From positions 4,710,501 to 4,774,500 of the forward strand of contig NZ_CP082362.1 of assembly GCF_020740535.1 (NCBI RefSeq): a stretch of DNA of 64,000 nucleotides, written 5' to 3'. Within the stretch, counting starts at the first letter, position 1; each line of letters starts with the position of its first letter. Origin of the DNA: Streptomyces profundus (GTDB taxonomy: Bacteria > Actinomycetota > Actinomycetes > Streptomycetales > Streptomycetaceae). The notes beneath the pieces were generated by a model, which ran no database searches, was not told the origin of the DNA, and saw only the letters and a program-made list of their open reading frames with translations. Shown here piece after piece: positions 13,400-32,489 of this stretch. The position numbers were made by a program, and so were the translations under genes.

Positions 13400-13428
13400 G
13401 TTGCGAACCCCCCAGGGCTGATGAGGGC
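13400..13428 (-). CRISPR. Solitary decayed I-B repeat
   Basis: GTTGCGAACCCCCCAGGGCTGATGAGGGC differs from the consensus at about four positions. It is followed by CCGAGAGTAAAGGTGCTGGT, matching the leader's repeat-proximal end. No second repeat is found to the left. It is the relic of an array that once stood directly upstream of the cas operon. Confidence 0.85.
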
Positions 13429-13600
13429 CCGAGAGTAAAGGTGCTGGTCAGAGTGGGTAGACGGGGCTGCTCTTCGGGGTGGGGTGCAGCGGGTCGGCGG
13501 TGGTGCGTCGGTGCTGGTCAAGGGGGGTGTCGAGGTGGCTGGGTGTTGGTTTGCGGTGCCAGCCTCGTTCGGGAGCCCGAGGTGTGGGCCAGCCTTGGCG
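13429..13600 (-). promoter_or_regulatory. Decayed I-B leader upstream of cas6
   Basis: The sequence after the solitary repeat aligns with leaders 1-3 through the GTAAAG block and a GTGCAGCGG...GGCGGTGGTGC block. The 12-bp palindrome of the other leaders is lost. Homology fades by about 13600. The cas operon promoter must lie between here and 13765, since the cas genes downstream are contiguous. The rest of 13135-13767 contains no gene. Confidence 0.6.
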
Positions 13601-13764
13601 GACTCGCTGTGACTGGAAGCTCGCTATCACAACTAGGCGAGCTTCGTCTGCATTTAGGTGTTTTCGTCCGCTGGCTCGTCGCCTGCGACTATCTTGCACT
13701 GCGTGTCATCGCACCACTGCTCGCGGTGATGTGCGGATGAGTCTATCGATCCTGCCGTGGGGGT

Positions 13765-14469
13765 GTGGTGAGAGTTCGCGTGGACGTCGCGGCGGATGTG
13801 CCGGTGGTGCCGTGGGAGGAGGTGCATGGGCCGGCGCGGGGGGCGTTGTATGGGCTGTTGTCCGAGGTGGAGCCGGAGTTGGCGCGGTCGTTGCATGACG
13901 GTGGGTGGGGTGGGCATCCGTTGCGGCCGGTGGGGATGACGAGTCCGTTGTTCAGGGGAGCGCCCGTGCGGGCGGGGGTTTTCACGACATCGCAGGATGG
14001 CTCGTTGTGGTTCGGGTCGCCGGTGCCGGAGATCGCTTCCGCGTTGGTGCGCGGGCTGGCGGCGCGGTCGGAGATTCGTTGGGGCTCGGCGCGGCTGTCG
14101 ATCCGGGGGGTGGAGCTGGAGCAGGCGGACCAGGTGGCCGACGGCAGGGAAGACGGGTTGGTGGAGCTGAGTTCGGTGACCCCGGTGGTGGTGAAGCGGG
14201 AGGGGCGGTATCTGTTGCCGGGCGACGAGCACTACGTCGAGCGGTTGCGGCACAACCTGGTGCACAAGGCGGATGTGTTGGGTCTGCCGGCGCCGCGTGG
14301 GGTGTGGGTGGTGGACGCGGGGCCGAGGCGGCGGTTCACCGTGCGGGGGGCGCCCAGGATCGGGGCCCGCGTGCGGGTGGCGTTGGAGGCGGACCGGCGG
14401 TTTGTGGCGGCGGTGCGGTGCTGGGGGCTGGGGTTGGACACGGTGCAGGGCTTCGGGTGGGTGCGGTGA
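13765..14469 (+). CDS. cas6: Cas6 pre-crRNA endonuclease (type I-B)
   Basis: Predicted 234-residue Cas6, the RNase that cuts I-B repeat transcripts and leaves the 8-nt handle. The C-terminal glycine-rich loop GLGLDTVQGFGWVR fits the Cas6 G-loop signature. GTG 13765 and GTG 13768 are both possible starts. HYVERLRHNLVHKAD contains a histidine that may be catalytic. It is first in an eight-gene operon, and its stop overlaps the cas8 start (GTGA). The size agrees with I-B Cas6. Confidence 0.88.
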   Translation: MVRVRVDVAADVPVVPWEEVHGPARGALYGLLSEVEPELARSLHDGGWGGHPLRPVGMTSPLFRGAPVRAGVFTTSQDGSLWFGSPVPEIASALVRGLAARSEIRWGSARLSIRGVELEQADQVADGREDGLVELSSVTPVVVKREGRYLLPGDEHYVERLRHNLVHKADVLGLPAPRGVWVVDAGPRRRFTVRGAPRIGARVRVALEADRRFVAAVRCWGLGLDTVQGFGWVR

Positions 14470-15908
14470 GCGTCGCCCAACTCCCGGTGGATCAGGGGGC
14501 GTTGGCGATGTCCGGTCATCCGTTGCAGCGCGCCGGCGCCTGGGCTGTGGCGGTGTTGGCGGAGCGGGCGAGCCCGGCGGAGGTGACGGGGCCCGACTTG
14601 GCGCTGGTCGCGGCGCGGATTGCCGAGGACGCGTCCCGGGCTGCCGTGGCCGACAAGGGCACGGCAGCCTACGACTGGTGGAAGGTCCTCTTCGCGCTCT
14701 ATCCCAATTCCAAGGCCACGCACAGCAAGCGGGCCAAGGACCGGGACGCGCTGCGGGACGCGATCCTGGAGTTGTTCGCTCCGGAGCCAGAAGGGGAAGG
14801 CAGGCCGCGCCCGTGTACGTTCTGCGGCGTTTCCGCGAGGGCCGTCTGGTCGAAGTCGAATCTTCCGCTGTTCGACACCAACAAGATGCTGAACACGCTG
14901 CCCCCCGGGGTGCCCGGCTGGCCGGTGTGTCGTGGGTGTCGGGTGGCGGCCTGGGCGTTGCCGTATGGGGCGTGGGTGACGGCTGGTTCGGCGACGGTGT
15001 TCTCCTGCGAGAGCGAGGTGGCCGAGCGGCGGTTCGCGGAGCGGAACGTGTTGCGGGCCCGGCGGGTGATGCAGTTGGGGTTCGAACGGCTTGGGGTTGA
15101 CGGGCGGCCGGAGTTGGTGGCGCTGCGGGCCCTGCGGCACGCACGGGTCGAGCTGTCGGCGTCCACGTTGTGGAGTTTCAAGAACGACAACCAGGAGCCG
15201 TGGCTGCGGGTGACCTATACCCGCAGGGCCGTGCCGCGCTTTCTGGCACTGGTGGAGGGGAACGCGCCGCTGCGGCGCGGCTGGCGGCTGTTGGAGATCG
15301 CGCTGACCCGGCGCGACAAGCAGGGCGCCGTGGTCAGCGGCGGTGCGGCCGAGGCGGCGCGGCTGGTGTTCGAGGTCGAGGACGGTCGCGGTCGCTCCTT
15401 CCTCTGGGAGCTGCACCGCCTGTTGACCGGCTCGGAGCATCGCTGGACCCCACAACACGCGACGTGTCTCGCGCGACTCGCCATGACCTATGCCAAGGAG
15501 GTGCTCGGGATGGATCCGGATCTGAAACCGGTGACGCAACTGCTCGTGGACTGGATCGAGCACGGAGGGAGTGGCGGGCCGAGGGGGCGCTGGGCGGAGT
15601 ATCAGCGCGTCGCCCTCAACCCCTATGAGCTGGGCAGGGTGTTGCACAGGGCGCAGAGCCGGCTCTTCCTGGACGGCCGCGAGATCACCGCGGACGGGGA
15701 GCACTGGAAGCGCCTGATCCAACGGCATCCCCGCGCCTGGGAGCAGCGGCTGCTGCTGAGCGTCGCCGTGGTGCAGGCGCTCCAGGAACGAAAAGTGCGG
15801 GTGAACGACAAGCCGGCCGACGCTGAGGAAGCAGAGCAGGTGGCGGCGCTCGAGAAGCAGATCGACGAGGCGGCCATCCTGGCCGACGACTCCCTGGGGG
15901 CGATGTAA
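14466..15908 (+). CDS. cas8b: Cas8b (Cst1-like) large subunit
   Basis: Predicted 480-residue large subunit of the I-B Cascade complex, which recognises the PAM and recruits Cas3. A zinc-finger-like region, CTFCGVSARAVWSK then VCRGCRVAAW (two CxxC pairs, about residues 118-160), is characteristic of Cst1/Cas8b1 proteins. The C-terminus is helical and acidic, which could include the small-subunit function. GTG 14466 was chosen because it overlaps the cas6 stop; the open frame extends 5' but runs through cas6. It overlaps cas7 by one base (TAATG). Confidence 0.85.
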   Translation: MSVAQLPVDQGALAMSGHPLQRAGAWAVAVLAERASPAEVTGPDLALVAARIAEDASRAAVADKGTAAYDWWKVLFALYPNSKATHSKRAKDRDALRDAILELFAPEPEGEGRPRPCTFCGVSARAVWSKSNLPLFDTNKMLNTLPPGVPGWPVCRGCRVAAWALPYGAWVTAGSATVFSCESEVAERRFAERNVLRARRVMQLGFERLGVDGRPELVALRALRHARVELSASTLWSFKNDNQEPWLRVTYTRRAVPRFLALVEGNAPLRRGWRLLEIALTRRDKQGAVVSGGAAEAARLVFEVEDGRGRSFLWELHRLLTGSEHRWTPQHATCLARLAMTYAKEVLGMDPDLKPVTQLLVDWIEHGGSGGPRGRWAEYQRVALNPYELGRVLHRAQSRLFLDGREITADGEHWKRLIQRHPRAWEQRLLLSVAVVQALQERKVRVNDKPADAEEAEQVAALEKQIDEAAILADDSLGAM

Positions 15909-16966
15909 TGGCGTATCTGGCCGGGAAGATGGTGTTGTCGGTGCGGGCCGCCGCGCCGAACAACGGTCGTGGTGAGCCCACCAAGGCCAAGGTGAAGACC
16001 GTGCGCACCCATGAGGGCACCTTCCCCTATGTGTCGGCGCAGGCCGTGCGGCGGTGGCTGCGGGAGAGCATGGTGGAGATGGGTTCGGTGCCTTCCCCGG
16101 TGACCCGGGTCGGCAAGGCACAGAACAAGGCACAGAAGGCCAACACCGAGGCCAATCCCGCCCGTTACGCCGACGATGACCTGTTCGGCTATATGAAGGC
16201 CGGCCCCAAGGGGGACTCGGAGGCGACGACGCTGCGGGACAGCCCGTTCATGTTGGGCACCCTGCTGTCGGTGGCGCCGACCCGGGTCACGGACGACTTC
16301 GGGGTGATGGCGCGCGGGGTGAGCGAGCCGGTGCTGCACGAGCACGAGTTCTTCACCGCCGACCTGGCTGCCCCCTTCCTGCTGGATCTGCCGCGCGTCG
16401 GCACGTTCACCCTGCCCACCAAGACCGGGGTGGGACGGCCCAACTACCTGAGCCAGGAGGCCGCGCTCCAGGTCGCCGAGGCGGCCTCGGCCGGGGCGTC
16501 CAGCGTGACGTTCCGCGACCAGCCGGCGGTGCGGTTGCCGCTCGCCGAACGGCGGGAGCGCGCCGCGCTGTTGCTGGAGGCCATGGCGCAGCTGAGCGGT
16601 GGGGCGAAGCAGGCGCTGCACTACGGGGATCGGGTGCCGGATCTGCTGGTTCTGGTGCCGTTCAAGGGCGGGGTCAACCCGCTGGCCCATGTGGTGGACG
16701 GCGAGCCCGGCCGTGGCCTGCGGGTGCGCGGTGACGTGCTGCTGGCGGAGTTGGAGGCGTGGGAGGGCGAGTGGCTCTCCCCGGTGCGGGTCGGCTGGCG
16801 GCCGGGCTTCGCCGACGACCAACGGGAGACCTTCGAGCGGCACTGCAAGGAGAAGATCGAGGCGGGCGAGATCGTGATCGGTCATCCCCGGACGGTGTTG
16901 CGCGATCTGGCGGCCGAGCTGCGCGACGGTGAGCTGGACATGTGGTTCGAGGATCCCGAACGGTGA
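15908..16966 (+). CDS. cas7: Cas7 (Cst2/DevR family) backbone subunit
   Basis: Predicted 352-residue Cas7 of the Cst2/DevR type, which forms the crRNA-bound filament of Cascade. The N-terminus contains LAGKMVLSVRAAAPNNGRG and later VKTVRTHEGTFPYVSAQAVR, the region typical of DevR-like Cas7. RPNYLSQEAALQVAEAA follows the lid region. ATG 15908 overlaps the cas8 stop, and the cas7 stop overlaps cas5 (GTGA). It has the family's usual length. The DevR name comes from myxobacterial relatives; no developmental role is implied here. Confidence 0.92.
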   Translation: MAYLAGKMVLSVRAAAPNNGRGEPTKAKVKTVRTHEGTFPYVSAQAVRRWLRESMVEMGSVPSPVTRVGKAQNKAQKANTEANPARYADDDLFGYMKAGPKGDSEATTLRDSPFMLGTLLSVAPTRVTDDFGVMARGVSEPVLHEHEFFTADLAAPFLLDLPRVGTFTLPTKTGVGRPNYLSQEAALQVAEAASAGASSVTFRDQPAVRLPLAERRERAALLLEAMAQLSGGAKQALHYGDRVPDLLVLVPFKGGVNPLAHVVDGEPGRGLRVRGDVLLAELEAWEGEWLSPVRVGWRPGFADDQRETFERHCKEKIEAGEIVIGHPRTVLRDLAAELRDGELDMWFEDPER

Positions 16967-17658
16967 CCGTGACGCTGGAGCGGCAGCCGTTGCCGGCGTG
17001 GCGGTTGGCGTTCTTCGCGCCCGTCGCCTCGTTCCGCGACCCGCTCTTCCCCGGGCTGAGCCGTGGTCTGCCGCTGCCTCCGCCCTCGACGGTGCGTGGC
17101 CTGCTGGCGGCGGCGACGGGGGAGTTGGCGGAGACGCTGCCCTTCGGGATGGCCGCCCGGGTGGAGGGCAGGGGCGTCGATGCCGAGACCTACCATCCGG
17201 TGCTGTCCAACGCCACCAACCCCACGGTCGGTGGCCGGGCCCCGGCCGCCAAGGGCGGGATGACGCTGCGCGACCGGCCTTTCCTGGCGGGCGTTCACCT
17301 CATGCTGTGGCTGCCGGGTGAGGAGGGCGAACGCGTCGCCCGCGCGCTGCGACGCCCCCGTTGGGCCCTGCGGCTGGGCCGTTCCCAGGACATCGTCCAC
17401 CCGAAGGCCCGTGACCGCGTGCTGCTGGAACCGGCGGCGGAAGCCGCCGTTGGCTATGCCGTTGCCCCGCTCGGCGGCCACGACGGCGGCTCGGCCCGGT
17501 CGGTGCGGATGGCCTCCAGCGTTTCGCCGGACCGGCTGGCCACCCGTTGGGCCGAGTACCTGTGGTGTGACGCGCCCGGCCCGGTCGGCCCGGTGCGCGG
17601 CGCCTACCGCGAGACGGGTTCCCACGAGGGCCAGGCCGTCTGGCTGCTCGAACCGTGA
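16963..17658 (+). CDS. cas5: Cas5 (Cas5t-like) Cascade subunit
   Basis: Predicted 231-residue Cas5, which caps the 5' end of crRNA in Cascade. The N-terminus fits the Cas5 RAMP pattern: PAWRLAFFAPVASFRDPLF then GLPLPPPSTVRGLLAAATGE. The second matches the conserved P-x-P-S-T-x-x-G-x-L segment of Cas5 proteins. GTG 16963 overlaps the cas7 stop and is preferred over GTG 16942, which lies inside cas7. The stop overlaps the cas3 start. The order cas7-cas5-cas3 is standard for I-B. Confidence 0.9.
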   Translation: MTVTLERQPLPAWRLAFFAPVASFRDPLFPGLSRGLPLPPPSTVRGLLAAATGELAETLPFGMAARVEGRGVDAETYHPVLSNATNPTVGGRAPAAKGGMTLRDRPFLAGVHLMLWLPGEEGERVARALRRPRWALRLGRSQDIVHPKARDRVLLEPAAEAAVGYAVAPLGGHDGGSARSVRMASSVSPDRLATRWAEYLWCDAPGPVGPVRGAYRETGSHEGQAVWLLEP

Positions 17659-20045
17659 ATCGCACCGTGACCGGCACGCCCGGGGCACGTCCGCTGACCC
17701 AGGTTCTGGCCAAGTCCAAGCCCGTCGAAGACCCCGAGCGGCTGACATCCCACTCCCTCACCGTCTACGAGACCGTCTCCCAGGTGGAGGCCCGGATCGG
17801 CCAGGCCGGGCTGCTGGCCGCGGAGCCGGACTTCTGGTCACGGGTGCGGCGCGCCGCGCTGCTTCACGACGCCGGCAAGATCGCGGAAGGCTTCCAGCGG
17901 CAGGTACGGCCCGGTGGGCCGCTCTGGGGCGAGCGGCACGAGGTGCTGTCACTGGCCTATGTCGATCTGTTGGCCACGGCCGGGCGCTGGCCGCATCACG
18001 ACCATCTGATGATCGCCACCCTGGTGGCCACCCACCACCGCCCACTGTTCTCCGGCGAGGCTCCGCGCGGCAAGCCCAGTCTCGACGCGCTGTACACCTC
18101 GGCCACCCGCTGGGACGAGGCGTTCACCCGCACCCCGGACCCCAACGGCGGATCCACCGTCCAGGTCCAGCGCGGCACCCATCGGGAGTCGCTGGCCTGG
18201 TTCGCCGGGATGCTCCACCTCGACCCGCCCGTTCCCTCGCCCGATGACCCGACGCTCGCCCAACGTGCTCGCCTCTCCCTGGCCAGGCTCCTCGTCGCCT
18301 GGGAACGGCCGGTCGCTCCCGAACGTGGCCTGCTCGCCGTCCTCGCCCAGGGTGCGGTGACCCTCGCCGACCGCGCCGGCTCGGCCCATGTCGCACTCCA
18401 GCCCCATCTGCCGCTGACCGCCGACTATCTGGCCCGCCTGCCCCACACCCCCTACCCCCACCAACGGCAGGCCGCCGCCAGCGAAGGTCATCTGCTGCTG
18501 GTCGCCCCCACCGGCAGCGGCAAAACCGAGGCCGGCCTGGCCTGGGCCGCCAGCCAACTCGCCCACCTGCCAGGACTACCCCGCGTGGTGTGGACACTGC
18601 CCTACCGCGCCTCCCTCAACGCCGCCCGACGACGCCTCACCGCCACGTTGACCCCGGCCCCGGGACAGCGACAGCCCGATATCGGCCTGTTGCACGGCAC
18701 CGTCGCCCACACCCTCCTCACCGAATCAACCCAGGACGACTGCGCCCCCACCCAGGCCCACGCCACCAAGGCACGCCAACAGGCGGGCGCCATGCGCCTG
18801 TTCGCCCAACGCCTGCGCGTCGCCACCCCCCACCAACTTCTCAACGGCGCCATCGCCGGACCGGCCTACTCCTCCGTCCTGCTGGAACAGGCCAACTCCC
18901 TCTTCGTCCTCGACGAACTCCACGCCTACGAACCGGAGACCTTCGGCCGGATCTGCGCCGCGATGCGCCTGTGGGAACGCCTCGGCAGCCGCACCGCCGT
19001 GCTCTCCGCCACCCTCGCCCCACCGATGATCGACATCGTCCGCGAGTCCCTCACCCAACCCGTCACCCTCCACCGCGCACCGCCAGGAACCAGCCCCGTC
19101 CGGCACCAACTCGCCCTGGACGACGAGCCCATCACCGCGTCTGCCGGCATCGACAGACTGCGCGGCTGGCTGACCGAAGGGCACAGTGTGCTGGTCATCG
19201 TCAACCGGGTCGCCAGCGCCCAGCACCTCTACGCGCTCCTGGCGGACGACGCCCGCAAGGCCCGCCCTGACGACCCCGACGCGGCCCTGCTCCTCCACTC
19301 CCGCTTCAGAAACCGCGACCGCGCCGCCATCGAGACCCGTCTGCTCAAGCGTCACCCCGAACGCGCAGTCGGCGAGCGGGCGGCGCGCGGCGGGCTCGTC
19401 GTCGCCACCCAGGCCGTCGAGGTCAGCCTCCAACTCGACTTCGACCGAGGCGCCGTCGAATGCGCCCCCATCGAAGCCGTCGCCCAACGCGCCGGCCGCG
19501 TCAATCGCCGCGGCCGACACCCGGACGGCGCGGTCGAGTTCCGCGTCCACCGCGCCGAGACCGAACGCCCCTACGCCAAGGGCGCCATGGACGCCTCCTG
19601 GCGCGCCTTGACCCGACACGTCGAGACCGGCTCGGCGGCCCTCAGCGAAGAGACCATCGACACCCTCCTCGCCGACGCCTACGACACCGCCTGGGGCCGT
19701 AGCTGGGCAGAGGAGGCCCGAAGGGCCCGCGACGAGTTCACCGAAACCTTTCTCACCTTCACCGACCCCTTCCACGACCGGGGCGAGTTCGCCCACCGGC
19801 TCAGCGAACAGTTCGACAGCGTCGAAGCCGTGCACGAGGACGACGCGCCCGAACTCCACACCCTCGTCAAGGGCCCCGACGGCGACCCGCTCCTCGCCTC
19901 CGGCCTGCTGATCCCCCTGCGCTACACCCAACTGCCCGCCTACCGCGCCCGATACGACCGAACCCTCCACGTCCACGTCATCGAGGGCCGCTACGACGAA
20001 ACCCTCGGCCTCATGCCGCCCGAGGAACCGGAGACCGTCCTGTGA
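17655..20045 (+). CDS. cas3: Cas3 nuclease-helicase (type I-B)
   Basis: Predicted 796-residue fusion of an N-terminal HD nuclease and a superfamily 2 helicase. HD residues are seen in LTSHSL, LLHDAGKIAEGF (about 69-80) and VATHHRPLF. The helicase has Walker A APTGSGKTEAG (about 283), the DELH box in LFVLDELHAYEP (about 418), SATLAP as motif III and QRAGRVNRRG as motif VI. All key residues appear present. It degrades target DNA after recruitment by Cascade. GTG 17655 overlaps the cas5 stop. It is distinct from the second Cas3 at 24.6 kb, whose HD domain is C-terminal. Confidence 0.95.
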   Translation: MNRTVTGTPGARPLTQVLAKSKPVEDPERLTSHSLTVYETVSQVEARIGQAGLLAAEPDFWSRVRRAALLHDAGKIAEGFQRQVRPGGPLWGERHEVLSLAYVDLLATAGRWPHHDHLMIATLVATHHRPLFSGEAPRGKPSLDALYTSATRWDEAFTRTPDPNGGSTVQVQRGTHRESLAWFAGMLHLDPPVPSPDDPTLAQRARLSLARLLVAWERPVAPERGLLAVLAQGAVTLADRAGSAHVALQPHLPLTADYLARLPHTPYPHQRQAAASEGHLLLVAPTGSGKTEAGLAWAASQLAHLPGLPRVVWTLPYRASLNAARRRLTATLTPAPGQRQPDIGLLHGTVAHTLLTESTQDDCAPTQAHATKARQQAGAMRLFAQRLRVATPHQLLNGAIAGPAYSSVLLEQANSLFVLDELHAYEPETFGRICAAMRLWERLGSRTAVLSATLAPPMIDIVRESLTQPVTLHRAPPGTSPVRHQLALDDEPITASAGIDRLRGWLTEGHSVLVIVNRVASAQHLYALLADDARKARPDDPDAALLLHSRFRNRDRAAIETRLLKRHPERAVGERAARGGLVVATQAVEVSLQLDFDRGAVECAPIEAVAQRAGRVNRRGRHPDGAVEFRVHRAETERPYAKGAMDASWRALTRHVETGSAALSEETIDTLLADAYDTAWGRSWAEEARRARDEFTETFLTFTDPFHDRGEFAHRLSEQFDSVEAVHEDDAPELHTLVKGPDGDPLLASGLLIPLRYTQLPAYRARYDRTLHVHVIEGRYDETLGLMPPEEPETVL

Positions 20046-20572
20046 ACCAACCCCCCTCACCGGACGAGGGCCCGGGTTCCGATGACGCCCCGCTCGGCGG
20101 CGTCCACCTCAAGTACCTCCACCACTGCCCCCGCCAACTCTGGCTCTACACCCACGGCTACCGCCCCGAACAGCGCAGCGACCTCGTCGCGTTCGGTGAA
20201 GTCATCGACGAGACCACCTTCACCCGCCGCCGCGACATCGACCTCGGCGAAGCGAAGATCGACTGGGTCACCGCCGGCGCCGTCATCCACGAGACCAAAT
20301 CCTCCCGCGCGCCAGCGCCCGCGCACGCCGCCCAGGTCCGCCACTACTGCCTCCTCCTGGAACGCCGGGGCGTCGCGGTGCGCGGCGGCGTCGTCCACTA
20401 CCCCCTCATCCGCCGCACCGTCGACGTCCCCTGGAACGACGAAGCCCGAGACCAGGCCCGCCAGGACGAGGCCCTCGCCCGTTCCGTCATCGCCGCCCCC
20501 ACCACCCCACCCCGCCTGCCCCGCCGCGAGTGCCGGGGCTGCTCCTACCTCGACTACTGCTGGGGAGACTGA
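20042..20572 (+). CDS. cas4: Cas4 adaptation nuclease
   Basis: Predicted 176-residue PD-(D/E)xK nuclease that trims prespacers and selects the PAM end. The Fe-S cysteines are visible as HHCPRQLW near the N-terminus and CRGCSYLDYC at the C-terminus. The nuclease core shows ALVRGE-like chemistry as GEVIDE, then ID and HETKSS (E-x-K, about 82-87), and a Gln motif in HAAQVRHYCLLLE. It overlaps cas3 (GTGA) and cas1 (TGATG). This is the only Cas4 in the window. Confidence 0.92.
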   Translation: MNQPPSPDEGPGSDDAPLGGVHLKYLHHCPRQLWLYTHGYRPEQRSDLVAFGEVIDETTFTRRRDIDLGEAKIDWVTAGAVIHETKSSRAPAPAHAAQVRHYCLLLERRGVAVRGGVVHYPLIRRTVDVPWNDEARDQARQDEALARSVIAAPTTPPRLPRRECRGCSYLDYCWGD

Positions 20573-21552
20573 TGCCCGCCGTTGGCCGCACCTACTGGCT
20601 GACCGAGCCCTGCCGCATTCGCCGCGAGGACGACAGCCTGCGCATCGAACGCCCCGACAACACGCCTGTGCGCATCCCCATCACCGACGTCCGCGACCTC
20701 ATCGCCTTCGACCACGTGGACATCAACACCTCCGCGCTGTCCATCCTCAGCCGCAACGGCGTCAGCCTCCATGTCCTGGACCACTACGGCAACCACGCGG
20801 GCCACTTCGCCCCCACCGACGCGATGTCCTCGGGCCCCGTCCTCCGCCGCCAGGTCGAACTCACCGCCGACCCCGACCTACGTGCCACCATCGGCCGCGC
20901 CCTGATCCTCGCCGCAGGCGAGAACCTCCGCTGGTCCCTGGACACCGACCACCTCGACCCCGCCCTCGCCACCCTCCGCGCCAAGCTCCCATCCTGTGAC
21001 GAACGGGACGCGATCATGGCCCAGGAAGGCAACTACCGCCGCACCGGCTGGGCCGTCCTCGACACCCAACTCCCGCCCTGGCTCCGCCTCAACGGCCGCA
21101 CCCGCCGCCCACCCACCAACGCCGGCAACGCCTTCATCAGCTACCTCAACACCCTCGTCTACGCCCGCGTCCTCACCGCCATCCGCAGCACGCCGCTCCA
21201 CCCCGCCATCGGCTTCCTCCACGCCGACACCGACCGCCGCCGCAACACCCTCGCCCTCGACCTCGCCGAACCATTCAAACCCCTCTTCGCCGAACGCCTC
21301 CTCAAACGCGCCGCCAGCCAGAAACACCTCAAACCGTCCGACTTCGAAACCGAGGTCGGCAGGGCATCTCTGAGCAAGAACGGCCGCAAGAAGGTCGCCG
21401 TCCTGATGCGCGAGGAACTCGACACCACCGTCTACCACCGCACGCTGAAACGAAAAGTCAGCTACGAGGAACTCATCCACCTCGAAGCCCTCAAAATCGT
21501 CCGCCTATGCCTCGAAGACAAGCCCTACAAGCCGTTCCGGCCCTGGTGGTGA
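20572..21552 (+). CDS. cas1: Cas1 integrase (type I-B), first catalytic Glu apparently absent
   Basis: Predicted 326-residue Cas1, the spacer integrase with Cas2. The core NAFISYLNTLVYARVLTAI is followed by the histidine segment AIGFLH and the acidic segment LALDLAEPFKP, giving H and D of the metal site. The helix that normally holds the first metal-binding Glu reads ARVLTAIRSTPL, with no Glu; I-B relatives as recalled carry LSEI here. ATG 20572 overlaps the cas4 stop. The rest of the protein looks intact, with normal length. It may be defective or use another residue. Confidence 0.92.
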   Translation: MPAVGRTYWLTEPCRIRREDDSLRIERPDNTPVRIPITDVRDLIAFDHVDINTSALSILSRNGVSLHVLDHYGNHAGHFAPTDAMSSGPVLRRQVELTADPDLRATIGRALILAAGENLRWSLDTDHLDPALATLRAKLPSCDERDAIMAQEGNYRRTGWAVLDTQLPPWLRLNGRTRRPPTNAGNAFISYLNTLVYARVLTAIRSTPLHPAIGFLHADTDRRRNTLALDLAEPFKPLFAERLLKRAASQKHLKPSDFETEVGRASLSKNGRKKVAVLMREELDTTVYHRTLKRKVSYEELIHLEALKIVRLCLEDKPYKPFRPWW

Positions 21553-24567: not shown

Positions 24568-27075
24568 GTGGCGCGCGAGTTGGGTGTGTCGTTCGGGGCG
24601 TTTATGCGTCGGGCGACGGGGCGTGAGGCGTTTCCGTTTCAGGAGCGGCTTGCGGTGGAGGGGTTGCCGGAGTTGTTGCGGGTGCCGCCTGGGTCGGGGA
24701 AGACGGAGGCGGCGGTGCTGCCGTGGCTGTGGCGGTTGTTGGAGCATCCGGACGCGGGGGTGCGGGCGGGGACGCCTGGGCGGTTGGTGTTCGTGTTGCC
24801 GATGCGGACGTTGGTGGAGCAGGTCGTCGACAAGGTGACGGCCTGGGTGGGGGAGTTGGGGCTGGGCGGGGAGGTGGGGGTTCATGTCCTGATGGGTGGT
24901 GAGGCCCGGGACGACGATGCCTGGCAGATGGATCCGTTTCGGCCTGCGGTGTTCGTGGGGACGCAGGACATGGTGTTGTCGCGACTGTTGCTGCGCGGGT
25001 ACGGGGATGCTCGGGCGCGGTGGCCGGTGCCGTTCGGGCTGTTGCACAACGGGAGCCAGTTCATCTTCGACGAGACGCAGCTGATGGGTCCGGCGTTGTG
25101 GACGTCGGTGCAGTTGCAGGCGTTGCGGGAGAAGTTGGGGACGGCGGTGGGGTCGTCGTCGATGTGGATGTCGGCGACGGTGGATCCGGTCGAGTTGGTG
25201 ACGGCGGACCGGACCGTGCCGCCCGTGCCGGTGGAGTTGAGCGCCGCCGACCGTGGCACGGAGGTGTTGGCCGAGCGGTTGGGCGCGCTGCGGCGCATTG
25301 AGCGGCTTGTGGTGCCGGATGAGCCGAAGGACTATCCGGGGGCGGTGGCTGAGGCGTTGGCCCGTCGACATGTGGCGGGGACGCGGACGTTGGCGTTCTT
25401 CAACACGGTGCGGCGTGCGGTGGAGGTGGCTCAGACGTTGTCCCGCCAGTTTTCCGGTGCGGGGGCGGCGCCCGAGGTGGTGTTGGTGCATGGGCAGTTT
25501 CGGCCGGGTGACCGTCGGCGGCTGGTGGATCGGGTGATGGCGGGGTGTGCGGGGGCGGGGCAGATCGTGGTCAGTACCCAGGCGTTGGAGGCCGGGGTCG
25601 ACATGACGTCGCGGGTGTTGTTCACCGAGGTGGCGCCGTGGACGTCGGTGTTGCAGCGGTGTGGGCGGTGCAACCGGACGGGCGATGACCCTGGCGCTGA
25701 GGTGCTGTGGGCCTGGCCTCCCGGGGGGAAGCGGGCGTCCGCCCCTTATCCGGAGGAGGAGCTGGCGGCCTCGGCCGAGACGTTGGCCGGTTGGGAAGGG
25801 GCGGAGGTCACGCTGCCCGAGATGTTGGGGACGTCGGTGGTCCAGCAGAAGGTGGAGTATCTCCAGCTGCGTCGGCGGGACCTGTTGCAGCCGTGGGACA
25901 CCATGCCGGATTTGAGTGGCGCGGATGTCGACGTGAGTCGGTGGATTCGGGACGGGCAGGAGCTGACCGGGCAGGTGGCCTGGCGGTCCTGGTCCGAGGG
26001 GCGGCCGGGTGAGGAGGGGGAGCGGTTTCCGGGGCGGGACGAGTTGTGTCCGGCTCCGTTGGATGACCTACGGGGGTTGGCGAAGGCGGGCCGGTTGTGG
26101 CTGTACGACCAGGTCGACGGCCTGTGGCGCCGGGTGGCGCCGAAGGGGGTTCGGCCGGGAGAGGTGTTCCTGATGGACGCCCGGCTGGGTGGCTACCAGG
26201 TGGAGACCGGGTGGGCGCCGAAATCCCGGACGCCGGTGCCAGTGGTCGCGGCGCGGACACGGGCCGCCGACGGCTTGGCTGGCGACCGGTGGTCGCAGGG
26301 GGACCGCTGGGTGAGTCTGGCGGAGCACGGGCGGGATGTGGAGGCGGAGTTGGCGGGGCTCCTCGCGTCCGCCGGTGAGGCGGTGGACGTTTCGCCCGCG
26401 CAGCGCCTTGCGGCGCGGGTCGCCGCCCGGCATCACGACCTTGGTAAGTCGCATGAAGTGTTTTGCTGCTCGTTGGCTCGGGCGGCTGGTGACGCGGTGC
26501 CGCCGGGGGAGGGACCCTGGGCGAAGGGCCCGGGGGAGCGGCTGCGCCACGAGCGTCCCTACTTCCGGCACGAGTTGGTGACGGCGCTGATGATGCTGGA
26601 CCCGTCCAGTGGGCTGCTGGATGAGGTGGAGGAGGCCGACCTCGCGGTGTATCTGGCGGCGGCCCACCACGGGAAGGTGCGGGTGTCGGTGCGCTCGGTC
26701 GGGGCCGAGGGGGAGTCGCGGACGCCGCGCCTGCTGGGGGTGGAGCAGGGGGAGGCGGTCGGGCCGGTTGAGACGTCCGACGGGCGCCTTGTCCCGGAGA
26801 TCAAGCTGGATCTGTCGGTGATGGCCCTGGGCGGTTCGACGAACGCCGTCGGTGACTCCTGGGTCCAGCGGGTGGTTGCCCTGCGGGATCGGTTGGATGC
26901 CGGGCCTTTCCGCGTCGGCTGGCTGGAGGCGCTGGTGCGGATGGCGGACTGGCGGGCCAGCCGCAGCTACCGCACCGATCCACCACCGGAGCTACCGGAG
27001 TCCGGCACGCTACCGCGACAACGTGCCGCCGCCAGCTCGGGCGAGTCCGAGGGGAAGCAGGAGGAGTTGTGGTGA
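24568..27075 (+). CDS. cas3: Cas3 nuclease-helicase, type I-G form with C-terminal HD
   Basis: Predicted 835-residue Cas3 in which the helicase comes first. Walker A is PPGSGKTEAA (about residue 40), the box II equivalent is FIFDETQLMG (about 167), SATVDP is motif III and LQRCGRCNRTG is motif VI. An HD domain follows at about 620 (ARHHDLGKSHEVF). Helicase-then-HD order is characteristic of the I-U/I-G Cas3. GTG 24568 has GGGGAG seven bases upstream; ATG 24523 is an alternative. The stop overlaps the next gene. It begins 200 bases after array A. Confidence 0.93.
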   Translation: MARELGVSFGAFMRRATGREAFPFQERLAVEGLPELLRVPPGSGKTEAAVLPWLWRLLEHPDAGVRAGTPGRLVFVLPMRTLVEQVVDKVTAWVGELGLGGEVGVHVLMGGEARDDDAWQMDPFRPAVFVGTQDMVLSRLLLRGYGDARARWPVPFGLLHNGSQFIFDETQLMGPALWTSVQLQALREKLGTAVGSSSMWMSATVDPVELVTADRTVPPVPVELSAADRGTEVLAERLGALRRIERLVVPDEPKDYPGAVAEALARRHVAGTRTLAFFNTVRRAVEVAQTLSRQFSGAGAAPEVVLVHGQFRPGDRRRLVDRVMAGCAGAGQIVVSTQALEAGVDMTSRVLFTEVAPWTSVLQRCGRCNRTGDDPGAEVLWAWPPGGKRASAPYPEEELAASAETLAGWEGAEVTLPEMLGTSVVQQKVEYLQLRRRDLLQPWDTMPDLSGADVDVSRWIRDGQELTGQVAWRSWSEGRPGEEGERFPGRDELCPAPLDDLRGLAKAGRLWLYDQVDGLWRRVAPKGVRPGEVFLMDARLGGYQVETGWAPKSRTPVPVVAARTRAADGLAGDRWSQGDRWVSLAEHGRDVEAELAGLLASAGEAVDVSPAQRLAARVAARHHDLGKSHEVFCCSLARAAGDAVPPGEGPWAKGPGERLRHERPYFRHELVTALMMLDPSSGLLDEVEEADLAVYLAAAHHGKVRVSVRSVGAEGESRTPRLLGVEQGEAVGPVETSDGRLVPEIKLDLSVMALGGSTNAVGDSWVQRVVALRDRLDAGPFRVGWLEALVRMADWRASRSYRTDPPPELPESGTLPRQRAAASSGESEGKQEELW

Positions 27076-29279
27076 GCGTGCGGGGTGTGGGCCTGCAAGG
27101 CATGGAAGCGGTCAGCCTGGCGGACTACCTGTGCGCTCTGGGGGTCCTGCGTGCGGTGGCCACCCAGGCCGATCCCGGGGCCACGCTGGCATGGCGTCAG
27201 GGCGTGCCGATCTTGGACAGCACGCTGAGCGGCGAGAATTTGGTGGGCTGGTTGAGCGAGGAGTTCACACCCAGCCCGATCATCTCGCCGTGGAACGCCG
27301 GCTCCGGGTTCAACGGCAACGGCAAGAGCAAGGAGGCCGAGCGGACCCTGGCCGCGGTCGAGGAGACCACCGACCCTCGGCTCGGCCCGCTGCGGGAGGC
27401 GGTGGCCGTTGGGCGGACGGTGGTGGCCGAAGGCCGGGCGCGAGGCTGGGCCGGGGGCACCATGTGGAGCGAGAAGCACAAGACCAGCCTGCTGACCCTG
27501 TGCCGCAACCGGCTCCCCGAGAACGCTCTGCCCTGGCTGGACGCCGCGTTCGCCCTCGACCTGGAGGACGTCTCCTACAACCCGCTGGCCGGCACCGGGG
27601 GCAACTTCCGCCGGCAGGAGCTGTCCGCCGGCTACCTCCAGCAGGTCCTCAACGCGACCCTGGACGCGCATGGCCGGTCCCTGGCCTGGGCCCGCTCGAC
27701 GCTCACCGGAGTCGAAGGCGCCCCGTACCTGCGGGGAGCGGTGGGCCAGTACGACCCAGGGCGCGTCGGCGGCATCCACTCCTCCGTCTTCGAGAAGCTT
27801 GACGACGCCGGGTTCATCAACCCCTGGCGGGTGGTTCTCACCTGTGAGGGCCTGCTGTTGTTCGCCAGCTCGGTGGCGCGCCGCAACCACGCCACCGGTC
27901 TGGCCAGCCCTTTTGTGGTCCGCTCCACGCCCTACGGATACAGCACGGCGGCCGACGAGAACGGCAAGGGCGAGTTCTGGGCGCCCTTGTGGGAACGCCC
28001 GGCCCGGCTCTCCGAACTGGAACAGCTGCTGGGCGAGGGCCGTGCCCAGTACCGTGGCCGGCAGGCCCGCAACGGGTTCGACTTCGCCCGCGCCGCCGGA
28101 TCGCTGGGCGTGGACCGCAACATCACCGCGTTTCGCCGGTTCGTCATCGTCGAACGCCTCGGGCAAAACCCCCTCGCCGCCCGAGCCGGGGACGTCCCCG
28201 TCGGCCCCCGCGCTCGACAACTCACCCTCCTCAACGAGGCGTTCGACTGGGTCGAGCGGCTCCGCGGCCCGATGCCGGCCGGCGTGGCGAGTCTGGCCCG
28301 TCGCGCCAAGGCCAGCATGTTCGCTCTTGCCGCCGGCACCGCGGAGCCCGATGTCGAAACGGCGGTATTTGTCAGGCGCTTCGGTCAGTTGCACGAGGCA
28401 GTCGCCCGCTCATCCCAGATGCGCGGCAAGACGCGCCCGTTCCAGCCCAGGGAGCGCCCCAGCTGGCGGCCCGCCTGGCTCGGAGGCGAACTGTCCCTGG
28501 CCGCCGCCCTCGCCAGCCTCTCCCACCGCCCTGGCGGCCCACCAGCCCTGCGTCCCCTCCTCACCCGCTGCACCAACCAGCCTTCGCGCCGGCTGGCCTG
28601 GAGCCAGGGTGCGCCCCCCAGCGGAGTGGACCTGGACGGGGCGACCCTGCCTCGGGCACTGGCCGCAGCACACCAGCACCGCCTCTGGGAGGTCGCCGCA
28701 CAAGCGGCCGACCAGGGCGCGATGCCGTCCGTCAGCTATGCCACGGCCACCCAGGCCCCGCCGGGTTCCGGCCTGGTACAGGACTTTCTGGACGGTCTGC
28801 TCGACGACCAGCTTCTGGCCGAGCTGCTGCGCGGCCTCCTCATCCTCGGCTGGCGCACCACCGTCCGTCCGCCAGTCGAAGAGACCCCCGACCCTCCCCT
28901 GCGCACTGCCCTGGCCACCCTGCTGCCCTTCTACGGTGACGCCCTCCCCTTGATGCGCTCCCAACTCCACCCGGAACGAGCACCATTCAGCCCTGTTCTG
29001 CGGCCACGCCCGGACTGGGCGAACCGGCTTCGCGCCGGTCGTATCGAGCCTGTCCTGGCCGACGCCCGCAACCGCCTACGCCAAGCCCACTGCCCACCCA
29101 TCCCCACCCCGCGCGACCTGCCGACCCTCGTGGACGGGACGCGTCTGGCCGCCACCCTGCTCATCCCCGCCCACACCGACCTCCGAGCCCGGGCCCTGAC
29201 CCAGGTCAGCGTCACCGCCCGGCTTCCTCGCCCCTACCAGCAGAAGAACCACCAGCAGACAAAGGACGCCGTCTCGTGA
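27072..29279 (+). CDS. csx17: Csx17 (Cas8-like) large subunit, type I-G
   Basis: Predicted 735-residue Csx17, the signature large subunit of type I-G effectors and probably the PAM-reading counterpart of Cas8. The N-terminus GVGLQGMEAVSLADYLCAL matches the Csx17 pattern of a conserved L-x-G-x-x-x-x-P-L-x-x-Y-L-x-x-L-G start, and PWNAGSGFNGNGKS follows. GTG 27072 overlaps the cas3 stop (GTGA), with AGGAGGAG just upstream; GTG 27069 is an alternative. It overlaps csb1 by four bases. No nuclease motif is seen. Confidence 0.9.
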   Translation: MSVRGVGLQGMEAVSLADYLCALGVLRAVATQADPGATLAWRQGVPILDSTLSGENLVGWLSEEFTPSPIISPWNAGSGFNGNGKSKEAERTLAAVEETTDPRLGPLREAVAVGRTVVAEGRARGWAGGTMWSEKHKTSLLTLCRNRLPENALPWLDAAFALDLEDVSYNPLAGTGGNFRRQELSAGYLQQVLNATLDAHGRSLAWARSTLTGVEGAPYLRGAVGQYDPGRVGGIHSSVFEKLDDAGFINPWRVVLTCEGLLLFASSVARRNHATGLASPFVVRSTPYGYSTAADENGKGEFWAPLWERPARLSELEQLLGEGRAQYRGRQARNGFDFARAAGSLGVDRNITAFRRFVIVERLGQNPLAARAGDVPVGPRARQLTLLNEAFDWVERLRGPMPAGVASLARRAKASMFALAAGTAEPDVETAVFVRRFGQLHEAVARSSQMRGKTRPFQPRERPSWRPAWLGGELSLAAALASLSHRPGGPPALRPLLTRCTNQPSRRLAWSQGAPPSGVDLDGATLPRALAAAHQHRLWEVAAQAADQGAMPSVSYATATQAPPGSGLVQDFLDGLLDDQLLAELLRGLLILGWRTTVRPPVEETPDPPLRTALATLLPFYGDALPLMRSQLHPERAPFSPVLRPRPDWANRLRAGRIEPVLADARNRLRQAHCPPIPTPRDLPTLVDGTRLAATLLIPAHTDLRARALTQVSVTARLPRPYQQKNHQQTKDAVS

Positions 29280-30355
29280 TCGACACCTCCGCCAACCGCA
29301 TCCGGCTGCGCGCACCCCTGCGGCCCGCCCTCGGCTCCCGCTTCCAGCCCACCGGCTTCCCCGACCTTGGGGCCGCGGAGTTCACCTCCTACAACGACGA
29401 CGGTGCTCCGGTCCGCTCCCTGCTGGTGGAATCCACCCAGTCCATGGCCAACCGCCTGGAGAACACCACCTGGGACCCCACCCAACAGGCCCCGATCGCG
29501 CTGCTATCCGACCTGCCTCACGTCGAGGTCCGTCACGCCGACGGCCCACCCCATCGCTTCCTGACCTCCTCCCGCCAGGAAGCCCACCGCCTGGCCTCCC
29601 CCTTCGTCCGCGAAGCCCAACTCGAAGACCGATCGATGGCCCAGGTCATCGGCCAGCGGCTCGACCTGGCCAACCACAAGCCCCTCGACTACCCAGCGAT
29701 GGCTCGCTCCCTGATGTCGCTGGACCCGCTCGTTCTCCTCCACGGCTGCTTCTTCAACCAGAAGGCATGGCCAGGACAGCCCCGCTTCGCCCGCGCCGTC
29801 AGCGGCGCCATCGAGGCCCATGACATCGAACAGGCCATCAGCGGCGGCCGAAAGTCCGACCACGTCCGCCACACCACCAGTGGCGAAGGCGACGAAGGCA
29901 CCGCCCTGGGCGGCAGCAGCGAAGGCTACGGCTCCATCCCCTTCTCCCGCGTCGAGTACACCGCCCGCCGGATCGAGGCCCAGTTCAGCGTCGACGTCCA
30001 ACTCCTCCGCTCCTACGGCCTCACCCCCCACACCACGGAACTCCTCACCACACTCGCCCTCTGGGAGATCCGCACCTTCCTCGAAACCGGCCTACGCCTG
30101 CGCACCGCCTGCGACCTCGACCTGGCCGGCGACATCCAGGGCACCGCCCTCCTGCCCACCACCCAACAACTCACCCACCGGCTACAGGAACTACTGCCCC
30201 AGACCATCGCCGAACTCGACCACACCGGCCCCCTGACGGTGCTGTGGAGCGACGACAAGCCCAAGAAGCCACGCAAGCCCACCGGGAAGAAGACCGTCCC
30301 GGCGCCCGCTACGACGGAGAACGCCGAGGCCCAGGAAGAGGCCGCGTCCGCGTGA
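29276..30355 (+). CDS. csb1: Csb1 (Cas7 of type I-G)
   Basis: Predicted 359-residue Csb1/GSU0053-like Cas7, the backbone subunit of the I-G surveillance complex. The N-terminal half has LRPALGSRFQPTGFPDLGAA and VESTQSMANRLE, both typical of the family. FNQKAWPGQPRFARAVSGA contains the conserved family centre. The C-terminal 40 residues form a Lys/Pro-rich then acidic tail. Both gene boundaries overlap neighbours by four bases (GTGA), so the four I-G genes are one translational unit. Confidence 0.92.
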   Translation: MIDTSANRIRLRAPLRPALGSRFQPTGFPDLGAAEFTSYNDDGAPVRSLLVESTQSMANRLENTTWDPTQQAPIALLSDLPHVEVRHADGPPHRFLTSSRQEAHRLASPFVREAQLEDRSMAQVIGQRLDLANHKPLDYPAMARSLMSLDPLVLLHGCFFNQKAWPGQPRFARAVSGAIEAHDIEQAISGGRKSDHVRHTTSGEGDEGTALGGSSEGYGSIPFSRVEYTARRIEAQFSVDVQLLRSYGLTPHTTELLTTLALWEIRTFLETGLRLRTACDLDLAGDIQGTALLPTTQQLTHRLQELLPQTIAELDHTGPLTVLWSDDKPKKPRKPTGKKTVPAPATTENAEAQEEAASA

Positions 30356-31794
30356 TCACCCTCGCCTTCCCCTTCCCCAACCGCCGCTACCACGCCACCC
30401 CCTGGGGCCGCTACCTCAACGAGGGCGCCGTCGAACTCCCGCCCTCACCCTGGCGCATCCTGCGCACCCTCTACGCCGCTTGGAAAACCCGCCACCCCGA
30501 ACTCGACACCGACACCATCCACCCCCTCCTCCACCAACTCGCCGCCCCACCCGTCTACCACCTCCCGCCCTACCAACTCGCCCACACCCGCCACTACCAC
30601 CCCGACACCCACCACCGGGCCGACAACCACAGCACCGACAAAGCCATCGACGCCTTCGCCCTCCTCGGCGCCGACGCCACCCTCTACCTCACCTGGCACA
30701 CCGCCGCCCCCACCCCCGCCCAACACAAGGCCCTCAACCTGCTCTGCCACGCCATCCCCTACCTCGGCCGCTCCGAAAGCATCACCGAAGCACGCCTCCA
30801 CGACGGCCCACCGCCCACCGACACCCACACCCCCAGCGAACTCCAACTCTGGAACGACAACAGCGAGACATCACCCGCCACCGAAACCATCCAACTCCTC
30901 GCCCCCGCCGGCCCCCTCGACCTCACCGCCCTCACCCAACGCCCCATCGACATCCGCGCCGGCAAACACCGCTACCCACCGAACACCCGCCTCCTGCCCT
31001 ACACCCTCCCCCTCCCCGACCCGACCCCCCACCGACACTCCCGCGCCACCGCCCGAACCCGCCCCGACATCACCGCGGTTCGCCTCACCCTCGCCGACCG
31101 CGCCCGCCCACCCCTCACCCAAGCACTGACCCTCACCGACGCCCTCCGAGCCGCCTGCATCAAACAACTCACCACCACCCACCCCGACCGCCTCCAACGA
31201 GCCAGCGTCCTCGCCGGCAAGAACGCCGACCAGACCCCCATGCAAGGCCACCGCCACACCCACTTCCTCCCCCACACCACCAACGGCCACCACATCGACG
31301 AAATCATCCTCTGGGCACCAGCCGGCCTCACCGACGAAGAACTCCACGCCATCCACGAAACCGCACGCACCCGAACCATCGGCGTCCCCCACGACATCCC
31401 CGGCCCCCACAACCTCCACCTCCGCGTCACCGCCTACGGCCCAGCCAAAGACGTCCTCCCCGCCCACTGGACCACCCCAGCCACCCGGTGGACCACCATC
31501 ACCCCCTTCATCCCCCCACGCCACCGCAAGAAGAACCAAGAACTCCACACCTACCTCACCGCCGAAATCACCCGCGAACTCGGCCACCGCAACCTCCCCA
31601 CGCCCACCGACATCACCATCACCCCCGGCCCCTGGTCCCGCCACACCCGACATCGCCGCTCCAAAAAGGAAACCCTCGCCAGTGCCCGCCCCGCCTACGG
31701 CCTCCAACTCACCTTCCCCCACGACATCCCCGGCCCCCTCACCCTCGGCCGCCACTCCCACTTCGGCCTCGGCACCTTCAACCCCACCCAATGA
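30352..31794 (+). CDS. csb2: Csb2 (Cas5-Cas6 fusion of type I-G)
   Basis: Predicted 480-residue Csb2/GSU0054-like protein, combining Cas5 with a Cas6-type pre-crRNA endonuclease. The N-terminal Cas5 part starts LAFPFPNRRYHATPWGR, then VELPPSPWRILRTLYAAWK. The C-terminal part ends GPLTLGRHSHFGLGTF, a glycine-rich segment with HSHFG expected in the Cas6-like domain. GTG 30352 overlaps the csb1 stop. It is the last gene of the operon. No cas1, cas2 or cas4 follows, unlike the standard I-G locus; instead array B begins 147 bases downstream. Confidence 0.92.
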   Translation: MITLAFPFPNRRYHATPWGRYLNEGAVELPPSPWRILRTLYAAWKTRHPELDTDTIHPLLHQLAAPPVYHLPPYQLAHTRHYHPDTHHRADNHSTDKAIDAFALLGADATLYLTWHTAAPTPAQHKALNLLCHAIPYLGRSESITEARLHDGPPPTDTHTPSELQLWNDNSETSPATETIQLLAPAGPLDLTALTQRPIDIRAGKHRYPPNTRLLPYTLPLPDPTPHRHSRATARTRPDITAVRLTLADRARPPLTQALTLTDALRAACIKQLTTTHPDRLQRASVLAGKNADQTPMQGHRHTHFLPHTTNGHHIDEIILWAPAGLTDEELHAIHETARTRTIGVPHDIPGPHNLHLRVTAYGPAKDVLPAHWTTPATRWTTITPFIPPRHRKKNQELHTYLTAEITRELGHRNLPTPTDITITPGPWSRHTRHRRSKKETLASARPAYGLQLTFPHDIPGPLTLGRHSHFGLGTFNPTQ

Positions 31795-31941
31795 CCCCAA
31801 CCCCTGAAACGACTTCGGAACCCCAAGCACACCCGGAAACCCCGGATCGCACCGAAGAAAAATGTCTCATAAACCCTGTTATGCGCCTCCCGCTCGCACC
31901 TCCTCCAGCACCCCACAACCACAAACCACCAGTTCACAAGC
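31795..31941 (+). promoter_or_regulatory. I-G CRISPR leader B
   Basis: It contains the 54-base block 31813-31866 shared with leader A, from CTTCGGAACC to GATCGCACCGAAG...AATGTC. The block is again 75 bases before the first repeat. Transcription of array B would be plus-strand, in line with the cas operon. Confidence 0.65.
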
Positions 31942-32489
31942 CCAGCACCACCGCGCCGACGGGCGGCCCCATTGAAGGGCCTGCTCTGCTGGCGCGCGGG
32001 TCACGGGACCGCCCCCAGCACCACCGCGCCGACGGGCGGCCCCATTGAAGGTTGCTGACGCCGAGCCGGTCGGCGATCTCGCCGATGCCAGCACCACCGC
32101 ACCGACGGGCGGCCCCATTGAAGGGATTGGGTGACGGAGGACATCTGGACGGCGAATGCGACCCAGCACCCCCGCCCCGAGGGGCGGCCCCATTGAAGGT
32201 CCTCTGCCAACTCCCGCACGGCCGCGTAGGAGCCCCAGCACCACCGCCCCGACGGGCGGCCCCATTGAAGGGGGTGGATCTTGACCCCGCCCTCGGCGTC
32301 GAAGTAATCCAGCACCCCCGCCCCGAGGGGCGGCCCCATTGAAGGTGCTCGTCGTTCGGGAGAGCCAGCGGCCCTCGAGCCAGCACCAAAGCCCTGGCGG
32401 GTGGCCCCATTGAACGGGGTGTCAGGCTTTCGCCCTGCCTGCTGCTGTCCAGGACTGCACTGTGGCCCAACTGGTGGCTCGATTGAAAG
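31942..32489 (+). CRISPR. Type I-G CRISPR array B (7 repeats plus a remnant)
   Basis: Repeats of 37 bp start at 31942, 32015, 32088, 32163, 32235 and 32309. A degenerate copy starts at 32380 and a remnant at about 32449. The repeat begins CCAGCACCACC and ends GGGCGGCCCCATTGAAGG. The 3' 12-15 bases match array A, but the 5' half does not. Hairpin arms vary between copies (CCGCCCCGACGGGCGG and CCGCCCCGAGGGGCGG). Decay at the right end places the leader at the left. Spacers are 34-38 bases. Confidence 0.95.

Follow-up and report, generated by a model that had tools for sequence, protein, structure and literature searches.

Type I-G CRISPR arrays of Streptomyces profundus carry I-C-type leaders and are probably supplied with spacers by a distant I-C integrase

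The stretch of Streptomyces profundus DNA studied here, hereafter the window, comprises 64,000 nt of the forward strand of contig NZ_CP082362.1 (assembly GCF_020740535.1, positions 4,710,501–4,774,500). It contains a complete type I-B operon of genes associated with clustered regularly interspaced short palindromic repeats (CRISPR) at 13765–21826, adjoined by a type I-G effector operon that ends at 31794; the distance from the I-B set to the I-G operon is 2.7 kb. Coordinates given without Mb are window positions, position 1 being the first letter of the 64-kb window. The genome of S. profundus is a single 7.65-Mb contig and is labelled G000 in comparisons. The two arrays of the I-G locus carry a leader of the I-C type, and the I-C operon located at 5.26 Mb in the same genome is the probable source of their spacers.

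The four I-G effector genes are located on the plus strand. The frame of cas3g (24370–27075; TIGR02621, 673 bits; Cas3g, 829 bits) is open from 24370, and the start is probably at 24568. It is followed by csx17/cas8g (27069–29279; TIGR04113, 379 bits), csb1/cas7g (29276–30355; TIGR02570, 67 bits) and csb2, a cas5-cas6 fusion (30244–31794; TIGR02165, 156 bits; Cas56g, 455 bits). All four exceed the NCBIfam cut-offs, which bears out the cas3-csx17-csb1-csb2 operon proposed in an initial annotation of this DNA, and neither the cas4-cas1 fusion nor cas2, both reported there as missing, was found in the locus. Array 1 (23670–24366) comprises 10 repeats of 37 nt, and array 2 (31942–32416) comprises 7 repeats of 37 nt belonging to a second repeat family; both are on the plus strand with the leader at the left, and the two families have the 3′ end in common. 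A search with the I-G repeat pattern gave 14 matches. Repeats 1–7 of array 1 are identical, while its last three carry 2, 9 and 7 changes. The uniformity of the leader-side repeats is a feature of array 1; array 2 is less uniform, with its seven repeats deviating from the consensus by 1, 1, 1, 2, 0, 2 and 6 bases.

The initial annotation placed the only integrase in the I-B operon. Within the window this holds, but genome-wide it does not: a search of the whole 7.65-Mb contig with PF01867 revealed three cas1 genes, one of the I-B type (in the window), one of the I-C type at 5.258 Mb and one of the I-E type at 2.61 Mb, where an I-E operon is present, and no cas1 of the I-G type. The second cas1/cas2 set envisaged elsewhere in the genome does exist, but it is I-C, not I-G. 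Because the genome has further integrases, the choice offered at first, between an I-B integrase serving both repeat families and frozen I-G arrays, misses a third option. The I-C operon at 5.26 Mb is complete (cas3-cas5-cas8c-cas7-cas4-cas1-cas2), its cas4, cas1 and cas2 are open frames with near full-length family matches, and judged by these matches the operon is intact. On the I-G Cas4g/Cas1g model, its Cas4 and Cas1 reach 109 and 289 bits, short of the cut-off of 560 but more than the I-B Cas4 and Cas1 (40 and 135 bits).

The leaders of the I-G and I-C arrays share a motif, which has exactly four matches in the 7.65-Mb genome, each 43 bp long: one at each I-G array (23543–23585 and 31815–31857, both on the plus strand) and one at each of two I-C arrays. 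The reversed pattern gave no matches in the same genome. The distance from the start of the motif to the first repeat base is 127 bp at all four arrays. Close to the leader end, the heptamer CCAGTTC is present at both I-G arrays and at one I-C array out of two. The I-B and I-E arrays of S. profundus lack the 43-bp motif. A profile was built from five I-C leaders of three other Streptomyces (three from G075 and one each from G175 and G186), none with csx17 in the genome scan, and was run on both strands of the window with the reversed window as a control. Only the two I-G leaders were significant (31810–31890, E = 1e-9, and 23538–23623, E = 1e-6), the next value being 8.6, and extrapolation of the profile to the leader end predicted both leader–repeat junctions within 1 bp. 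A profile of eight leaders from I-G loci with the Cas4-Cas1 fusion gave nothing significant in the window (best E 6.6). Leaders were also compared by local alignment, with the maxima of 200 shuffles as the null. The leader of I-G array 2 scored 65 and 56 against the two I-C leaders (null maxima 31 and 22); the I-G pair scored 60 and the I-C pair 81. Against five I-B and two I-E flanks, neither I-G leader reached the null maximum in any comparison. On this sequence evidence, the two I-G arrays carry an I-C-type leader at the I-C distance.

For three I-G spacers, protospacers were located in the DNA of phages, viruses or plasmids, each with TTN at its 5′ flank. Spacer 6 of array 1 has a perfect match (35 of 35 positions) in an IMG/VR contig (TTT). 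Spacer 9 of the same array matches Streptomyces phage TurkishDelight at 32 of 37 positions (TTC) and four IMG/VR contigs with 4–7 mismatches (TTC in one, TTG in three); its first, PAM-side bases (PAM, protospacer adjacent motif) mismatch the phage targets, so that these phages can at best be related to the true target. In array 2, spacer 4 has matches in four Streptomyces plasmids (31 of 35 positions, TTG). The I-G arrays have thus taken spacers from genuine invaders, with a TTN-type PAM. Together with the identical repeats 1–7 of array 1, these matches support the earlier view that the uniform leader-side repeats argue for activity at some time. When six I-G spacers were searched in IMG/VR as exact 22–23-nt patterns, four had no match, among them the three at the leader end of array 1, and the other two matched one and four contigs. 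No I-C or I-B protospacers were found for a comparison of PAMs with I-G. Several hits were dropped as chance: a Pseudomonas phage for spacer 2 of array 2 (8 mismatches in 36), a Bradyrhizobium plasmid and two Rhodococcus plasmids, two Gordonia phages against I-C spacers (11 to 18 mismatches) and two Mycobacterium phage records against an I-B array.

In order to follow the leader in other organisms, a csx17 alignment scan of named genomes was used, which yielded 43 loci. None of 10 arrays beside a Cas4-Cas1 fusion has the I-C-type motif, and 8 of the 10 have another inverted repeat, GCGAGC...GCTCG. Among 19 I-G-type arrays that are fusion-less or cas-less, the I-C-type motif was recognised by eye in 15 and a fusion-type leader in two (Microbispora and Amycolatopsis, both confirmed by the profile of eight fusion-type leaders); the remaining two were left unassigned. 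Two of the 15 motif-bearing arrays belong to G147, with no cas genes in the 33 kb fetched, and one has the right half of the motif only. The I-C profile matched none of 15 loci with the Cas4-Cas1 fusion, one of which (L067) shows a Cas1 fragment only. A form of the motif is present at all eight chromosomal I-C arrays whose loci contain cas1, in six exactly as TTCGGAACC and in two as variants. A stricter motif pattern gave 13 matches in 9 of 392 Streptomyces genomes. Nine are leader-like (three in G000, two each in G075 and G386, one each in G347 and G147); the other four (G423, G352, G230 and G034) are of another length and coding-like, and no array was found at the two that were fetched. Since 8 of the 10 fusion I-G arrays carry another inverted repeat at a similar position, the leader element seems to follow the integrase and not the I-G effector: by sequence, the leader type goes with the integrase.

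In Sinosporangium siamense (G247), an I-C operon that includes cas1 coexists with a fusion-less I-G locus, and both leaders share a variant motif. In Streptomyces sp. MS19, csx17 and the I-C cas1 are both present by name. The genes csx17 and csd1 were found in 3 of 246 and 11 of 392 Streptomyces, respectively, and G000 is the only one of the three csx17 genomes with csd1. G386 has a second I-G lineage (L160) with the order csb1-csb2-cas3g-Cas3 extension, 37-nt repeats and two I-C-type copies of the motif, one followed by a run of N; no fusion was found in 20 kb of this locus, and csx17 was not seen, part of the locus reading N.

The repeat length changes along with the leader. I-C repeats are 37 nt long in all eight arrays with at least 7 copies. 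Repeats beside the fusion are 36 nt long in 10 of 11 arrays and 35 nt in one, and those of Microbispora 36 nt. Among nine I-G-type arrays with an I-C-type leader and at least 5 copies, a script gave 37 nt for six, array 2 included, and 38, 39 and 40 nt for the other three, which were read as 37 nt by eye, chance bases lengthening the block; one of these is array 1, given as 38 nt by the script and read as 37 nt since a C that precedes five of seven repeats by chance accounts for the extra base. Fisher's test (37 nt in 9 of 9 versus 0 of 12) gave p = 3e-6, a value that overstates the case, given the relatedness of the arrays and the reliance on the eye for three of the lengths. Left out of the count were arrays with fewer than 5 copies (among them G075_ICa, 38 nt; AMAC_IG2, 43 nt; AMYC_IG2, 37 nt, with a fusion-type leader) and those with an unassigned leader (ACMA_IG2, 18; NOCA, 32). 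The first 8 repeat bases were also compared with I-C, and the difference (0.46 versus 0.32) was too small, so the claim of a likeness was dropped.

I-C loci are also found on Streptomyces linear plasmids (L192–L197). L192–L194 show cas4, cas1 and cas2, and because such complete operons lie on linear plasmids, I-C modules can be mobile. The I-C profile matched five of the six plasmid loci and placed the junction at the repeat start in those five; L196 had no match, and in L195 cas8c is split by a transposase. I-C effector loci without cas4-cas1-cas2 were seen in the stretches fetched for L130, L131 and L133–L136 (G079, G130, G352, G104, G320 and G194). Their arrays look degenerate, with few shared 12-mers, and the I-C leader profile matched none of seven cas1-less I-C loci.

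Taken together, these data make it probable that the I-G locus of S. profundus is an interference-only locus, the spacers of which are inserted in trans, now or until recently, by Cas4-Cas1-Cas2 encoded in the 5.26-Mb I-C operon. A prespacer would be cut beside a TTN-type PAM by I-C Cas4-Cas1-Cas2, and the complex, perhaps with a host DNA-bending protein, would then recognise the 43-bp motif and the leader–repeat junction of an I-C or an I-G array. The spacer would be inserted and the 37-nt repeat copied. As the repeat keeps the I-G-type stem and the 3′ end CCATTGAAGG, the transcript of the I-G array would be cut by Csb2, and the spacer would therefore arm the effector Csx17-Csb1-Csb2-Cas3g. 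The shared leader, the open-frame I-C adaptation genes, the repeat lengths and the TTN flanks are read from the DNA itself; from them, we infer the binding of the motif by I-C Cas1-Cas2, its action on the I-G arrays and the biochemistry of the four steps. The most likely history is that the I-G lineage gave up its own integrase and that its arrays have been written by an I-C-type Cas4-Cas1-Cas2, here that of the 5.26-Mb operon. A wider proposal is made more tentatively, with somewhat less than even confidence: the whole actinobacterial I-G lineage may have dropped its integrase, switched to the I-C leader and come to depend on I-C modules that come and go, some of them on linear plasmids, with the inverted-repeat leader elements of the I-C and fusion types serving as address labels for the integrase.

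The csx17 tree (29 rows, three of them unlabelled) bears on both proposals. Ten fusion-less sequences form one clade (100/99 support); the fusion-less csx17 of Nocardia and Amycolatopsis lie outside it, and the tree needs at least three changes. Further fusion-less matches, outside Actinomycetota or at contig ends, include L057, L062, L071, L075 and L082 among others. Eight of the ten clade genomes are shotgun assemblies.

A number of observations weigh against supply by the I-C integrase. A full-length I-C Cas1 is found in only 2 of the 10 clade genomes (G000 and G247). G248, G250 and G251 had no Cas1 match in searches with the Pfam family and the I-C Cas1 protein, the Cas1 of G252 is I-B-like, and G218, G246, G249 and G254 have only weak matches of the I-E kind, the tblastn check as I-E covering G218 and G246. 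Actinomadura rayongensis, in which no Cas1 was found, has 17 near-identical repeats. Microbispora, a member of the fusion-less csx17 clade, has a fusion-type leader. When run on whole loci (E 0.01), the Streptomyces I-C profile matches only 4 of 12 fusion-less I-G loci (L039, L041, L044 and L046, with L041 and L044 from one organism), and most motif calls outside Streptomyces were made by eye. In S. profundus itself, the leader of I-G array 1 aligns with the I-C leaders at scores of 25 and 28 (null maxima 33 and 27), hardly above shuffles; the leader case is carried by the motif and the profile, not by this alignment. The repeat also has a part in setting its own length, through a ruler element, as described in PMC6895254. 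The TTN flank does not discriminate, as it is the PAM of some I-G and apparently I-C systems in the lists of PMC8482600, which give TTN and TTC for I-G, and TTC, TTN and TTT in rows placed before I-D that are apparently I-C.

A search for hidden Cas1 with the I-C Cas1 protein in 12 fusion-less I-G genomes gave a full-length match in G247 only. G218 has a weak I-C Cas1-like fragment of 113 residues (L166 5739–6062, G218:C1:1354723–1355061; E 5e-4), possibly a remnant of a lost I-C module. The I-G array of G218 (L039 10185–12366) has many strongly diverged repeats with 72–74-nt spacing, and this genome has no full-length I-C or I-G Cas1. Outside the clade analysis, G386 and G147 have only weak I-E-like Cas1 matches, and G347 has no Cas1 match. 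In the I-G array of A. rayongensis (L049 14987–16338), seven leader-side repeats share one base change relative to older ones; this array is a clear record of leader-end growth, in a genome with no Cas1 found.

Among the alternatives, the one that survives best is that the I-G arrays are relics, built by a past I-C-type integrase and now static, with the effector living on old spacers. The variable repeats of array 2, the degenerate repeats in which both I-G arrays end and the lack of exact IMG/VR matches for the three leader-end spacers of array 1 are consistent with it, as are the strongly degenerate array of G218, the degenerate appearance of the six cas1-less Streptomyces I-C loci and the failure of the leader profile at all seven cas1-less I-C loci. 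However, repeats 1–7 of array 1 are identical, the I-G leader has been kept, unlike at the cas1-less I-C loci, and the I-C operon is intact by family matches. We regard the static state as unlikely.

The shared motif might also be a promoter or a site for a host protein, common to I-C and I-G arrays by chance, and not an integrase site. The motif, ~45 bp long, is an inverted repeat in leaders of the Streptosporangiales type; its distant upstream position (−127) would suit the binding of a regulator, and it persists in genomes without an I-C Cas1. Set against this, the I-B and I-E arrays of the same genome are without it, 8 of the 10 fusion I-G arrays possess an inverted repeat of another kind at a similar site and the repeat lengths change along with the motif, which makes this explanation markedly less probable still. 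Feeding of the I-G arrays by the neighbouring I-B Cas4-Cas1-Cas2, the nearest integrase at 2.7 kb and the one that the initial annotation had considered for both repeat families, is contradicted by I-B leaders at shuffle level against both I-G leaders, I-B repeats of ~30 nt versus 37 nt, a motif found elsewhere only at the two I-C leaders and a conserved leader of the I-B arrays' own, and it deserves hardly any credence.

The I-B operon is on the plus strand, and its completeness, as first annotated, is confirmed by family matches, although the cas8b-like gene matches only weakly. It comprises cas6 (13765–14469; TIGR01877, 75.8 bits, over cut-off; Cas6b, 299 bits), an open reading frame containing the cas8b-like gene (13905–15908, start probably near 14466; weak PADLOC Cas8b match of 28 bits and no match in NCBIfam or Pfam), cas7/Cst2 (15908–16966; TIGR02585, 220.5 bits), cas5 (16942–17658; TIGR02593 over cut-off, TIGR01895 below it), cas3 (17655–20045; TIGR01587, 171.5 bits; TIGR01596, 85 bits), cas4 (20042–20572; TIGR00372, 52 bits, below the cut-off of 65), cas1b (20530–21552; TIGR03641, 319 bits, over cut-off) and cas2 (21563–21826; TIGR01573, 31.5 bits, over cut-off; Cas2b, 96 bits).

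Arrays of both types lie between and around the two operons, as originally noted: the I-G arrays described above and I-B arrays at 21954–22515 (9 repeats) and ~10941–11170, with a single I-B repeat at 13400. The leader of the 21954–22515 array (22516–22696, minus strand) is near-identical to that of the 10941–11170 array (94% over 129 nt and 97% over 59 nt). With leaders at the right, the I-B arrays are read on the minus strand; the leaders of the I-G arrays are at the left. More I-B repeats were seen at 43470–43897 of the window, at 3.79 Mb (3793524) and at 4.79 Mb (4793457), with a lone repeat at 7.52 Mb; as the 3.79- and 4.79-Mb arrays share the leader of the I-B operon, the I-B integrase seems to serve several distant arrays. 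Between the I-B and I-G arrays, the stretch 23316–23370 resembles the 3′ part of a transfer RNA (tRNA) gene on the minus strand. ARAGORN found no tRNA in the 64-kb window, this stretch included; it is possibly an old attachment site.

Cases in which different CRISPR types share acquisition are already known. The VI-B system of Flavobacterium columnare is fed in trans by the II-C Cas1-Cas2, as demonstrated by cas1 deletion in PMC8092290. The likeness to S. profundus lies in an effector locus without cas1/cas2 and spacers from the integrase of another type in the same genome, which is predicted here; in F. columnare the leader–repeat junctions of the two systems were dissimilar, whereas in S. 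profundus a common leader can be recognised at a constant distance, and both systems belong to DNA-targeting subtypes of type I. Type III arrays without adaptation genes in their loci are likewise served by type I integrases, and their spacers show the PAM of the partner (PMC8482600). The categories of sharing given in that paper pair DNA- with RNA-targeting systems, whereas the DNA–DNA pairs it lists keep their own adaptation genes. The I-G systems with a Cas4-Cas1 fusion, as described in PMC10504553, have the same effector genes (csx17, csb1, csb2 and cas3g). In contrast to the fusion loci compared here, with their other leader inverted repeat and 36-nt repeats, the S. profundus locus has neither the fusion nor cas2. 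With the I-C systems of Streptomyces, chromosomal or on linear plasmids, the I-G arrays have the leader motif, its position and the repeat length in common, but the effector and the repeat 3′ end differ (ATCGCAAC in I-C versus CCATTGAAGG in I-G). No paper on sharing between I-C and I-G, or on a leader type that switches with the integrase, was found in the open PubMed Central literature, subscription papers being outside the search.

The recognition of arrays by integrases has been worked out mainly for types I-E, I-F and II-A. The I-G effector with two types of integrase represents a natural swap, in which the leader inverted repeat and the repeat length change accordingly, so that two arrays and two sets of cas1-cas2 would allow a direct test of the leader address. 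Supply by an I-C integrase is also the likely answer to how adaptation-less I-G loci obtain spacers. If true, it would be an extra case of acquisition shared by two DNA-targeting subtypes and, if the reading for the whole lineage also proved true, the immunity of these actinobacteria would depend on borrowed and partly mobile writing machinery.

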